A stretch of 64,000 bases of DNA, taken from NCBI GenBank assembly GCA_036382775.1, contig DASVHD010000032.1:1-64000 (forward strand), read 5' to 3'. The notes below the pieces were generated by a model. It did no database searches, was not told the origin of the DNA, and was given only the letters and a program-made list of their open reading frames with translations. Position numbers and translations under genes: made by a program. Shown one piece after another: positions 5,596 through 57,211 of this stretch (positions are counted from its first letter, which is position 1; every line of letters starts with the position of its first letter). Source of the stretch: a bacterium. GTDB taxonomy: Bacteria > Hydrothermota > Tepidihabitantia > SM23-42 > JAOAFX01.

Positions 5596-5641
5596 GGTTC
5601 CTTAAAATTCTAAATAAACAGGTATCTCGTTATTCGTGATT

Positions 5642-5733
5642 CGGCATCGCCACTCGTATCGTTTTTCGTTTGTCGTTTTAGGTGGTCCTTTACCGTATAG
5701 CAATGCCGTATAACGATACCAGTAGCCACGCCG
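5642..5733 (+). repeat. Inverted-repeat element related to the four-helix-bundle element, gene-less copy 1
   Basis: The left arm (5642-5663) begins CGGCATCGCCACTCGTATCG. The right arm (5712-5733) begins AACGATACCAGTAGCCACGC. They are inverted, 18 of 22 positions pairing, with 48 bp between. The same arms occur at 30153-30244, around the gene at 52924-53355, at 54953-55060 and at 57091-57190. Confidence 0.8.
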
Positions 5734-5745
5734 TAAAACCATTAA

Positions 5746-30120: not shown

Positions 30121-30140
30121 CGAAACACAGTTGTGTTTCG
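30121..30140. promoter_or_regulatory. 20-bp perfect palindrome upstream of dinB
   Basis: CGAAACACA-GT-TGTGTTTCG, 13 nt before the chosen dinB start. It could be an operator (for example for LexA) or an mRNA hairpin at the ribosome site. Its half-sites are spaced differently from the palindrome at lexA, so a shared regulator is uncertain. Confidence 0.4.
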
Positions 30141-30152
30141 TCATACGTTATT

Positions 30153-30244
30153 CGGCGTCGCCGCTCGTATCGTTTTTCGTTTACCGTCACAGGCGATTCT
30201 TTGCCGTATGACAATGCCGTATAACGATACGGGCCGCCAGGACG
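30153..30244 (+). repeat. Inverted-repeat element related to the four-helix-bundle element, gene-less copy 2
   Basis: The left arm starts CGGCGTCGCCGCTCGTATCG (30153), and the right arm AACGATACGGGCCGCCAGGA (30223). The inner distance is 48 bp, as in copy 1. Pairing extends outward through CGTTAT/ATAACG. It fills the gap between lexA and dinB. Confidence 0.8.
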
Positions 30245-30267
30245 TATAACGTTTGCCATGATCTGGG

Positions 30268-52023: not shown

Positions 52024-52869
52024 ATGAAGGATAATTCATTACGGCTGGGTGGATTCAAACTCACGCCATTGTCCGACGGGACCTTCTGGCTTGACGGCGG
52101 AGCGATGTTCGGGGTCGTGCCAAAAGCACTTTGGAACAAGCTCAATCCCGCCGATGAATTGAACCGGATCGAGCTGGCGCTGAACACGCTGCTGATACAG
52201 ACGGGCAATGCGAACGTGCTTGTCGATACCGGGATCGGCGCCAAGGTCGACGCGAAATTCACCGAGATGTACCGGTTCGAGCGCGCGGAAACACTCGTCG
52301 ATTCTCTCAAACGATGCGGTCTTGATGTAAATGATATCGACTACGTGATCAACACGCATCTTCATTTCGATCACTGCGGCGGCAACACGGTAGCGATCGA
52401 TGGCAGGTCGGTGCCGACGTTCCCGCGTGCGAAATATATCATCCAGAAACTTGAATGGGAAGATGCATTGAATCCCAATGAAAGAACCCGGGCAAGCTAT
52501 TTAAAGGAGAACTTCATTTCACTTGAGGAAAAGGGGCAGTTGAACCTGGTCGAAGGCGGCCTTGAGGTTACGCCAGGGATAAAGGTTATGAGAACACCGG
52601 GACATACGGCCGGTCATCAGTCGGTTTTGATCGAATCTGTAGGCAAGAAGGCGATGTACTTGGGCGACCTTATGCCCACGACATCGCATTTCAAAATCCC
52701 GTATGTCATGGGATATGACCTCTATCCCTTGGAGATCATGGAGACCAAGAAAAAAATTATCGACCAGGCGATCAATGAAAAATGGCTATTTATCTTTGAA
52801 CACGATCCGAAAGTGATATTCGCTTACCCCGTTGAGGAAAACGGAAAACGAATGTTGAAAGAAATTTAG
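52024..52869 (+). CDS. Metallo-beta-lactamase-fold hydrolase
   Basis: 281 aa from the ATG at 52024 (MKDNSLRLGGFKLTPLSDGT), chosen because GGGAGAGG lies 8 nt upstream; a longer reading would run far into the transporter gene. Metal motifs: THLHFDHCGG (HxHxDH), TPGHTAGHQS (His), YLGDLMPTTSHF (Asp) and EHDPKV. The lactonase-like subgroup (AiiA/YtnP type) is most similar by motif, so a thioester or lactone substrate is possible; not decided. A repeat arm begins 2 bp after the stop. Confidence 0.87.
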   Translation: MKDNSLRLGGFKLTPLSDGTFWLDGGAMFGVVPKALWNKLNPADELNRIELALNTLLIQTGNANVLVDTGIGAKVDAKFTEMYRFERAETLVDSLKRCGLDVNDIDYVINTHLHFDHCGGNTVAIDGRSVPTFPRAKYIIQKLEWEDALNPNERTRASYLKENFISLEEKGQLNLVEGGLEVTPGIKVMRTPGHTAGHQSVLIESVGKKAMYLGDLMPTTSHFKIPYVMGYDLYPLEIMETKKKIIDQAINEKWLFIFEHDPKVIFAYPVEENGKRMLKEI

Positions 52870-52871
52870 TT

Positions 52872-53364
52872 TTACGGCTTCGCCACTCGTATCGTCAAAA
52901 AAGCAAAAAGGCGTCGATAACATATGATAAAAAAACCTATAAGAAGTTTTAAAGATTTGGATGTCTATCAAAGTACTTATCGCGCATCTTTGACAATCGC
53001 CGGTAAAATTTTGCCGAAGTTACCTGATAGTGAAAAACATGATCTACGTAGTCAATTAAGCAGGTCGTCAAAAGCAGTTCCACGATTAATCGCTGAAGGG
53101 TTTGCTAAAAAACACCAGAAGCTAGGTTTTCAGAAGTATCTTGATGATGCAATGGCTGAATGTAACGAGACAATTGTCAGCCTTGAACACACTAAAGATA
53201 TTTACTCATTGGAAACTGAACTATGTATTGTTCTTGTTGACGTTTATGATAAAGCCGCCCGCCAACTATTTAATCTAGCCGAAGCATGGGATTTGTTCAA
53301 GAATAGAAGACGAACGACGAAGCCGTATAACGATACGGGCAGCGATGCCGTTTAACGTTCAACG
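52872..53364 (+). mobile_element. Inverted-repeat-bounded element carrying a four-helix-bundle gene
   Basis: The left arm (52872-52894, TACGGCTTCGCCACTCGTAT...) and right arm (from 53329, AACGATACGGGCAGCGATGC...) are inverted copies of the same sequence that forms gene-less elements at 5642, 30153, 54953 and 57091. The gene at 52924-53355 fills the space between the arms and takes its last codons and stop from the right arm. This resembles 23S rRNA intervening sequences, which also have terminal inverted repeats around a four-helix-bundle gene. Movement is inferred; no target duplication was found. Confidence 0.65.
52924..53355 (+). CDS. Four-helix-bundle protein (23S rRNA intervening-sequence / S23 family)
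   Basis: 143 aa. IRSFKDLDVYQSTYRASLTI, DLRSQLSRSSKAVPRLIAEG and FQKYLDDAMAECNETIVSLE are characteristic of the TIGR02436 four-helix-bundle family, known from intervening sequences in 23S rRNA of Leptospira and Coxiella and related to Avd of diversity-generating retroelements. Function is unresolved; RNA or DNA binding is suspected for the family. The last residues (KPYNDTGSDAV) are translated from the right repeat arm. No SD. It is wedged between the hydrolase and pccB genes, with AT-richer codon use than either neighbour. Confidence 0.88.
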   Translation: MIKKPIRSFKDLDVYQSTYRASLTIAGKILPKLPDSEKHDLRSQLSRSSKAVPRLIAEGFAKKHQKLGFQKYLDDAMAECNETIVSLEHTKDIYSLETELCIVLVDVYDKAARQLFNLAEAWDLFKNRRRTTKPYNDTGSDAV

Positions 53365-53387
53365 TATTTAACAGATAAGGAGTACTT

Positions 53388-54935
53388 ATGAAAATCAAGG
53401 ACAAGCTAAAACATCTTGAGCAGCTAGAGAAAGAGGCCCGTCTCGGCGGTGGCGAAGCGCGGATAAAAGCACAACACGACAAAGGCAAGCTGACGGCGCG
53501 CGAGCGCATTGACCTGTTACTGGACAAAGGAACTTTCCGGGAGACCGACATGTTCGTCACGCACCGGTGCAGTGATTTTGAGATGGAAAAGACCCGGATC
53601 CTTGGCGACGGTGTGGTTACGGGTTACGGACGGATCAACGGGCGTCCCATATGCATATTTGCCGAGGATTTTACCGTCTTCGGCGGCTCGCTTTCTATCA
53701 CATATGCGCAAAAGATCTGCAAGCTTCAGGATTTAGCGGTGAAGACGGGGTGTCCAGTCATCGGCCTGAAGGATTCCGGCGGCGCCAGGATCCAGGAGGG
53801 AGTGGACAGCCTTGCCGGATATACCGACGTATTCCTGCGTAATGTCCTCAGTTCGGGTGTGGTGCCTCAGATATCGGCCGTTATGGGGCCATGCGCAGGC
53901 GGTGCCGTCTACTCTCCAGCCATGACCGATTTTGTCATTATGGCGGGTGGTTCCTACATGTTCTTGACCGGACCGGATGTCGTCAAAGCCGCGACCCACG
54001 AGGACGTGACATTCGATGAGCTGGGCGGTGCGATGGTCCATAACGAAAAGTCCGGAGTGGCGCATTTTGCCGTTGACACCGAGATAGAGTGCATCGAACT
54101 GATAAAAAAATTAATGTCCTACATCCCGCAGAATAATCTTGAAGATCCGCCGAAGGTAAGCTGCAGCGATGATGTTAACCGGGGCGACAAGGAGCTTGAC
54201 ACTGTGGTCCCTGACAGCCCCAACAAGCCCTATGACATGCTGGACGTCATTCATAAGGTCGTGGACAACGGTGATTTTCTGGAAGTGCACAAGCACTATG
54301 CGCGGAACATGATCGTCGGTTTTGCGCGGTTCAACGGGCAGTCGGTAGGTATTGTCGCTAACCAGCCGGCGGTCCTGGCCGGCGTTCTGGATTGCGATTC
54401 CGCAATGAAGGGCGGACGGTTCGTAAGATTTTGCGACTGCTTCAATATACCGATCGTCACCTTCGTTGACGTGCCTGGGTTCCTGCCGGGGACGGCACAA
54501 GAATGGGGGGGCGTGATCAAGAACGGTGCTAAACTGCTTTACGCGTTCTGCGAAGCGACCGTTCCCAGGGTGACCGTGATCACACGCAAGGCCTATGGCG
54601 GCGCCTACTGCGTCATGAGCTCGAAGCATACCCGCGCCGACATAAATTTCGCGTGGCCCAGCGCCGAGATAGCGGTGATGGGTCCGGATGGGGCCGTGAA
54701 AATATTGTATCGCAAGGAACTCAAGGAAGCAAAGGCGCCGCGCGATCTTGAAAAATCACTGATCGATGACTACACCGATAAATTCGCGAATCCCTTCGTG
54801 ACCGCGAGCAAAGGATACATTGATGCAATCATCCGACCGTCAGAGACAAGACCGCGCATCATCGAATCGCTGGCGATGATCGAGAACAAACGGGATAAGA
54901 ACCCTCCTCGAAAGCACGGGAATATACCGTTATAA
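53388..54935 (+). CDS. pccB: Acyl-CoA carboxylase carboxyltransferase subunit (propionyl-CoA carboxylase beta type)
   Basis: 515 aa, two crotonase-like halves. [20 protein letters not shown] with [17 protein letters not shown] is the CoA site. [33 protein letters not shown] and [15 protein letters not shown] form the biotin side. It carboxylates propionyl-CoA to methylmalonyl-CoA with the biotin carboxylase and carrier genes downstream. Odd: the specificity position that is Asp422 in Streptomyces PccB is Cys408 here (GGAYCVM), so acyl preference may be shifted. SD AAGGAG. Repeat elements lie on both sides of the gene. Confidence 0.93.
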
Positions 54936-54952
54936 AGATCGTCTGTCGTTAT

Positions 54953-55060
54953 GGGGCATAGCCGCTCGTTTCATTTTATTCAATTTTTTTGGTTCAGATC
55001 GTTGACGTATAACGAAGCCGTACAACCATACAGGCAGCGATGCCGTAGAACGTTCAACGG
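54953..55060 (+). repeat. Inverted-repeat element, gene-less copy 3, close relative of the gene-bearing element
   Basis: The right half 55014-55060 matches 53318-53364 of the gene-bearing element at 42 of 47 positions (CGAAGCCGTACAACCATACA... to ...AACGTTCAACG). The left arm starts GGGCATAGCCGCTCGTTTCA. It lies directly before the biotin carboxylase start, which has no SD. Confidence 0.8.
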
Positions 55061-57067: not shown

Positions 57068-57090
57068 TTGAGTAAAAAAAAGGAGTTATA

Positions 57091-57190
57091 CGGCATGGCC
57101 ACTCGTTTCGATTTACGGCATCGTCATACGGGGATTAAACAAACATATAACGACAAACGTCTTACGATACGAGCGGCGACGCCTTATAAC
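57091..57190 (+). repeat. Inverted-repeat element, gene-less copy 4
   Basis: The left arm starts CGGCATGGCCACTCGTTTCG (57091), and the right arm ACGATACGAGCGGCGACGCC (57163). Inner distance about 50 bp. It separates the ribosome site AAGGAG (57080-57085) from the mutase gene at 57211. Confidence 0.75.
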
Positions 57191-57211
57191 GTAAAACAAA
57201 TGATATCGTAA
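57095..57211 (+). CDS. Repeat-encoded 38-codon leader ORF before the mutase gene
   Basis: ATG at 57095 lies 9 nt after AAGGAG and opens 38 codons ([20 protein letters not shown]...) that lie almost wholly in the repeat element. Its TAA (57209-57211) overlaps the mutase ATG at 57211 (TAATG). The mutase has no SD of its own, so re-initiation after this ORF could be how it is translated. It has no known homology; it may be only a by-product of the insertion. Confidence 0.5.

Follow-up and report, generated by a model that had tools for sequence, protein, structure and literature searches.

An IVP (S23) gene between inverted, iterated arms: a probable small mobile element among the protein genes of a bacterial operon

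The window analyzed here is the whole 64,000-nucleotide stretch of DNA, in which we investigated a small element at positions 52869–53366. The element consists of an arm, a gene for a 143-residue IVP (S23, four-helix-bundle) protein, and a second, inverted arm, and it lies between two genes of a host operon. Upstream is the gene of an MBL-fold hydrolase (a metallo-hydrolase; 52024–52869, + strand) and downstream a pccB-like carboxyltransferase gene (53388–54935, + strand), both identified as open reading frames. The left arm (52869–52897, + strand) starts at the hydrolase stop codon, and the right arm (53310–53366, − strand) overlaps the 3′ end of the IVP gene (52924–53355, + strand). The arms read GTTTTACGGCTTCGCCACTCGTATCG on the left and AACGATACGGGCAGCGATGCCGTTTAACG on the right, where they are inverted. 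The left arm is 82% complementary to positions 53310–53331 over 22 nt, and an inverted match is also found at 53331–53350. The arm pattern CGGCATCGCCACTCGTATCG matches at 52875–52894 (+ strand, one mismatch) and 53331–53350 (− strand, three mismatches), with six matches in the window as a whole and none in shuffled sequence. Together with the profile scores given below, these matches bear out the initial annotation of a four-helix-bundle gene within inverted arms. That annotation also placed the stop codon and about 11 codons of the gene in the right arm; the stop (53353–53355) is indeed there, and the arm encodes the final ~16 codons (RRRTTKPYNDTGSDAV, residues ~128–143). We considered the ATTTA that flanks the element on both sides as a target duplication and rejected it as chance, since 61% of shuffles have such a 5-mer. 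A search for Rfam families found none in the 64-kb window.

The protein scores 57.2 bits against PF05635 (23S_rRNA_IVP; cut-off, 33.8) and 45.1 bits against TIGR02436 (four helix bundle protein; cut-off, 24). AlphaFold2 gave a model with a pLDDT of 92.9, in which the tail encoded by the right arm has lower confidence; structure prediction without an alignment was poor. A Foldseek search with the model indicates that the best structural match is 2gsc (Xcc0516), followed by 2rld (BT_0352), with TM-scores by target length of 0.84–0.89 and 0.73–0.84, respectively. The model is therefore a four-helix bundle of the Xcc0516/BT_0352 type, and structures of Avd, the accessory protein of diversity-generating retroelements (8ube and 4dwl), rank lower among the matches. 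Xcc0516 itself is pentameric, and the title of its structure paper, cited in PMC3936711, describes five four-helix bundles. In the family motif GxxRxxxSxxxNxxE, the window protein keeps R42 and E53 (alignment numbering), has A in place of S, and has L in place of N. E53 and E77 are 99% conserved across 156 IVPs, which could reflect a part in either structure or catalysis.

The same arms also form copies that contain no gene. The initial annotation reported four such elements elsewhere in the window, and the arm pattern and alignment recovered all of them: at 5630–5735 (+ strand), at 30140–30256 (+ strand), at 57084–57195 (− strand), and, in degenerate form, at the pccB-accC junction (54945–55055, + strand). 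Narrower limits for the same copies are 5642–5735, 30153–30250, 57091–57184, and, for the degenerate one, ~54948–55050. As RNA, these four fold with z scores of −2.6, −4.3, −4.8, and −0.2, respectively. Searching the whole genome with the arm pattern, as had been proposed, revealed a spread in copy number, with 16 matches against none for a reversed control pattern. Ten gene-less copies of ~110–120 bp align with a mean column identity of 80%, and their heptamers are present only in degenerate form (CGTATCG-TTTTTCG-TTTATCG). Their inverted ends are shared with the gene-bearing element and the copies are dispersed, as in miniature inverted-repeat elements (MITEs); the best reading is that they are miniatures of the IVP element. 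The genome also holds 57 matches to a second arm family, GAAGTTAnGAAGTTA (control, 0); among them, only the C19 pair has both arms around an IVP gene. Arms of a further locus (L018) were considered as a dispersed family and dismissed, as they occur in three places only, all inside 8 kb. Separately, further iterated arrays of the AAATCCTAAA type lie outside CGTATCG-type miniatures at five loci (L001, L003, L005, L009, and L013), suggesting nested insertions.

The genome that carries the window has eight IVP genes, and the first flanks that we read had other inverted arms. The expectation of a single arm consensus therefore had to be abandoned: the arms are an open set of iterated 7–9-nt arrays that differ by IVP subfamily. 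We scored a gene as bracketed if its upstream and downstream flanks gave an inverted match with a score of at least 24. In this genome and 40 relatives, 54% of 83 IVP genes are bracketed, compared with 5.7% of 159 control open reading frames, a control figure that is slightly too high because the window IVP gene remained in the control set. In the GTDB collection, the proportions are 72% of 78 IVP loci and 7.1% of 126 controls; these 78 loci are not a random sample, as they were found with patterns of one IVP branch, the first alignment being too diverse for a genome scan. Their sources include Chloroflexi, Nitrospirae, Acidobacteria, Bacteroidetes, Verrucomicrobia, and a Heimdallarchaeota metagenome-assembled genome (MAG). 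For plasmids from cultured bacteria, predominantly Nostocales, the counts of bracketed genes are 14 of 16 for IVP and 2 of 16 for controls; the set includes two near-identical loci (L239 and L249) and two obtained with a hand-written, consensus-like IVP query (L254 and L255). No arms could be detected at between a quarter and one half of IVP genes, and phages and viral contigs gave no IVP match with the queries used here. As a side observation, the IVP genes of an Atribacteria MAG (L164) and of a Heimdallarchaeota MAG (L165) are 76% identical over 418 nt, with homology that stops near the element; either transfer or contamination would account for this likeness. Another contig (G015:C68, L060) holds three related IVP genes at a spacing of about 3 kb.

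Among 109 loci with significant arms, 99 are periodic, being tandem arrays of 7–9-nt units; the best period is 7 in 49 loci, 8 in 22, and 9 in 13. The arms lie at a median of 27 nt upstream of the start codon and 13 nt downstream of the stop codon, and in 19% of these loci an arm overlaps the 3′ end of the gene, as in the window. Units vary by locus and include AGGGAGT, AGTCAGG, GGGAAAA, GTTCAAG, GAAGTTAG, AGCTAATGG, and CGTATTCGT, among others. On the plasmids, the arms are tandem arrays of 7-nt units (AGGGAGT, AGTCAGG, GGGAAAA, and TGTAGGG). Similarity between arms read in the same sense climbs with protein identity from about 40% upward, and antisense similarity does so much less. A Mantel test of arm similarity against protein identity gave a rho of 0.15, where the maximum of 500 permutations was 0.09. 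Vertical descent of whole elements adds to this correlation, which therefore speaks for linkage and shared orientation and does not on its own indicate binding. In 81 of 99 cases, G outnumbers C on the sense strand of the upstream arm. By these comparisons of arms and proteins, both the arm unit and its orientation track the IVP subfamily.

Next, we compared filled and empty sites. The hydrolase and pccB genes adjoin in 19 relatives, and none of the 19 has an IVP gene or the element between them, which answers the earlier call to compare these junctions. The closest IVP found, at 72% identity, belongs to a relative (G004) that carries a full element at the pccB-accC junction, where the window has its degenerate gene-less copy. 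The cleanest insertion is on plasmid C of Trichormus variabilis, whose empty counterpart is in Tolypothrix PCC 7601; the upstream proteins of the two have the same accession. The empty site reads AAAAAGTAATTAACAAAT (also given as AAAAAGTAATTAACAAATAAATATG). The filled site reads AAAAAGTAAT, followed by the element (AAATCAG...TTCTTT) and then GTAATTAACAAATAAATATG, the right flank being also given as GTAATTAACAAAT; it has 428 nt extra and a clean 5-bp target duplication. Further plasmids, at 97% identity, are empty at the same site. Nine Nostoc plasmids have in common an operon, A-B-C, in which an AGTCAGG-armed element occupies the A-B junction in three, in the region of the A stop codon. One plasmid carries a GGGAAAA-armed element at the B-C junction, exactly at a TAATG stop-start overlap and with an ATG on both sides. 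Both junctions are empty on other plasmids, and in one filled/empty pair gene B is 99.7% identical. The nrdB-nrdA and cas10-cmr3 junctions are each occupied in one species, with an empty counterpart in a second.

Other pairs separate the element from its surroundings. Two of the loci (L255 and L252) are 82% identical over 416 nt, with homology that stops at the element and flanks that are unrelated. In two relatives, G021 and G005, different IVP elements with different arms occupy one site, with flanks about 92% identical. A tRNA site is occupied by arms plus gene in G021 and by the arms alone in G005, and identity of the flanks there is 93% to the left and 82% to the right; the G021 assembly is 67% complete and lacks two of the G005 loci. 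Of the target duplications, one is a clean 5 bp (the gene-bearing element of Trichormus plasmid C), one is 3 bp, one is 4–5 bp with a 1-nt ambiguity, and two sites give no length; the gene-less copies gave none either. Judged from these comparisons, the gene is found and moves together with its arms, and the element enters at gene borders, duplicating a few base pairs of the target.

Some sites may be used repeatedly. In eight genomes (L017, L031, L041, L046, L058, L060, L075, and L084), different IVP genes lie beside homologous neighboring DNA, an apparent insertion hotspot. In one relative (G001, L176), the hydrolase-pccB spacer is 615 nt long and contains an open reading frame whose end looks Y1-transposase-like by eye, along with other palindromes; this junction too may be a hotspot. 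Two Nostoc plasmids carry broken IVP genes annotated as fragments (L245 and L234), consistent with decay after insertion.

The window locus is probably a copy of a compact mobile DNA element in which one IVP gene is enclosed by two inverted arrays of 7–9-nt units. Here, the element would have inserted between the hydrolase and pccB genes, leaving both intact, with its right arm completing the reading frame of the IVP gene. An IVP oligomer would recognize its own repeated unit, of which each array offers several copies, and would bring both ends of the element together; cutting and joining of the ends would follow, carried out either by the IVP or by an enzyme of the host. Binding of the arms and any DNA-cutting activity are thus putative properties of the protein. 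Gene-less copies would retain the arms and depend for movement on an IVP of their own subfamily acting in trans. The initial annotation had suggested a non-autonomous mobile element. Mobility agrees with the empty sites and relocation, and the term non-autonomous suits the gene-less copies; the gene-bearing form more likely carries the trans-acting protein.

An alternative that we regard as unlikely is an RNA route, in which a transcript folded by its arms is excised or stabilized, with RNase III involved, and then re-integrated by a reverse transcriptase acting in trans, with the IVP as an Avd-like partner. The IVP does share the fold of the retroelement protein Avd, excision of rRNA intervening sequences by RNase III is known (PMC4990558), and RNA folding is strong in most miniatures: five of seven window-family gene-less copies have z scores of −2.6 to −4.8, the others being at −1.5 and −0.2. 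However, for the full 511-nt element, folding is no stronger than in shuffled sequence (z = −0.16), so the long transcript stem proposed in the initial annotation is plausible for the miniatures and not for the full element. Covariation among the miniatures is also weak (2 of 22 pairs), and no PF00078 reverse transcriptase was found in the window's own genome, which is 95.6% complete. The locus accordingly does not belong with diversity-generating retroelements, in that its genome offers no such partner.

A second alternative, somewhat less probable again, is that another enzyme or process moves the palindromes (a REP-associated Y1 transposase, host recombination, or replication slippage) and that the IVP is a passenger with some other function that settled in the loop. 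The genome has nine Y1_Tnp matches, and for some array families no IVP bearing those arms was found in this genome. Against this, among four Y1 genes examined of the nine, the two intact ones have non-iterated 27-bp inverted ends unlike the arrays, and the other two have no significant inverted ends; assignment to REP/RAYT systems, where a Y1 transposase is bounded by the same palindromes, was therefore rejected. Nor would a passenger be expected to have arms that track its protein subfamily and orientation. The 27-bp repeats, perfect at L215 (TGGGGTCAAATCTTCACATTATACATT) and with one mismatch at L218 (GGGGCAGGCGTTAAC...), mark a separate type of element. Finally, these genomes abound in iterated intergenic repeats, but the idea that the arms are chance or low-complexity repeats beside an ordinary, vertically inherited gene is very improbable, as it is contradicted by the shuffles, by control genes of the same loci (armed in only 6–7%), by clean empty/filled pairs, and by homology limited to the element in L255 and L252.

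The mobile element favored here shares its plan with the intervening sequences of 23S rRNA that hold an S23/IVP gene in Leptospira, Coxiella, and Salmonella: stem-capable inverted ends with one IVP in the loop, a sporadic distribution, and suspected mobility. Those rRNA sequences are suspected to be remnants of transposition or of mobile elements (PMC4990558), and inserts in 16S and 23S rRNA genes of CPR bacteria are also reported to carry IVP genes (PMC11270868). The window locus has the complementary ends around an IVP reading frame, but it sits between hydrolase and pccB rather than in a 23S helix, and the only 23S rRNA gene found in its genome (~3028 nt) has no insert the size of an intervening sequence, which lends no support to descent of the element from a 23S insert. 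In contrast to the rRNA forms, the elements described here lie between protein genes of operons, have iterated 7–9-nt arms that vary by IVP subfamily, and show gene-less dispersed copies, empty sites, and target duplication. The proposal that the rRNA plan has spread into intergenic DNA is supported, with copies that are dispersed and mobile, and the initial reading was sound at heart but too narrow; the plan itself was already known in rRNA. REP/REPIN-RAYT systems and MITEs are alike in being short dispersed palindromes with gene-bearing and gene-less forms, whereas the IVP element has no recognized transposase and its ends are arrays instead of a single conserved palindrome. Avd shares the four-helix-bundle fold, but neither the IVP element nor the searched genome has a reverse transcriptase.

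Heptamer repeats are a further point of comparison. The cyanobacterial STRR repeats are heptamers (PMC4692102). GGGAATC heptamers occur in Xanthomonas and Nostoc, and X. campestris has 70 inverted pairs of them (PMC4692102). Heptamer arrays are also described in Beggiatoaceae (TAACTGA) and others, where the mobile element was suggested to be, perhaps, a protein that binds the repeats (PMC4679880). Both reports leave the origin of the arrays unexplained. Like the arms, these are intergenic 7-nt arrays that vary between relatives, in Xanthomonas often as inverted pairs; the portions of both reports drawn on here name no IVP gene or element, whereas the arrays described here bracket IVP genes. 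X. campestris is also the species of the solved IVP Xcc0516. The IVP element may be related both to the intervening sequences of rRNA and to the heptamers seen in cyanobacteria and Xanthomonas. More broadly, and with doubt slightly outweighing confidence, we propose that IVPs mobilize a widespread and so far undescribed class of transposable elements without a recognized transposase, that each subfamily reads its own 7–9-nt array, that the class spawned the heptamers of cyanobacteria, Xanthomonas, and others, and that the intervening sequences of 23S rRNA arose when copies inserted there. In the open-access literature searched, no paper was found to link IVP genes with iterated inverted arms, and a mobile element of this kind apparently has not been described before. 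If the IVP proves to be a mobility protein, the class would be new, with self-matching iterated ends. The reading assigns a testable role to the common, mostly uncharacterized IVP/S23 family and points to a candidate source for intergenic heptamer repeats; it also raises anew the question of whether the intervening sequences of rRNA are mobile elements that settled there.

The element also offers an explanation for IVP genes within cas operons. Such genes have been noted in cas loci (PMC3936711; PMC10910872), and the reported associations with CRISPR may be insertions. We observed IVP genes in CRISPR operons of Picosynechococcus PCC 7003 (L240), Pseudanabaena (L250), and Anabaena sp. 90 (L253), once at cas10-cmr3 and twice at cas6-cas4; L250 is without inverted arrays, and the other two have them.
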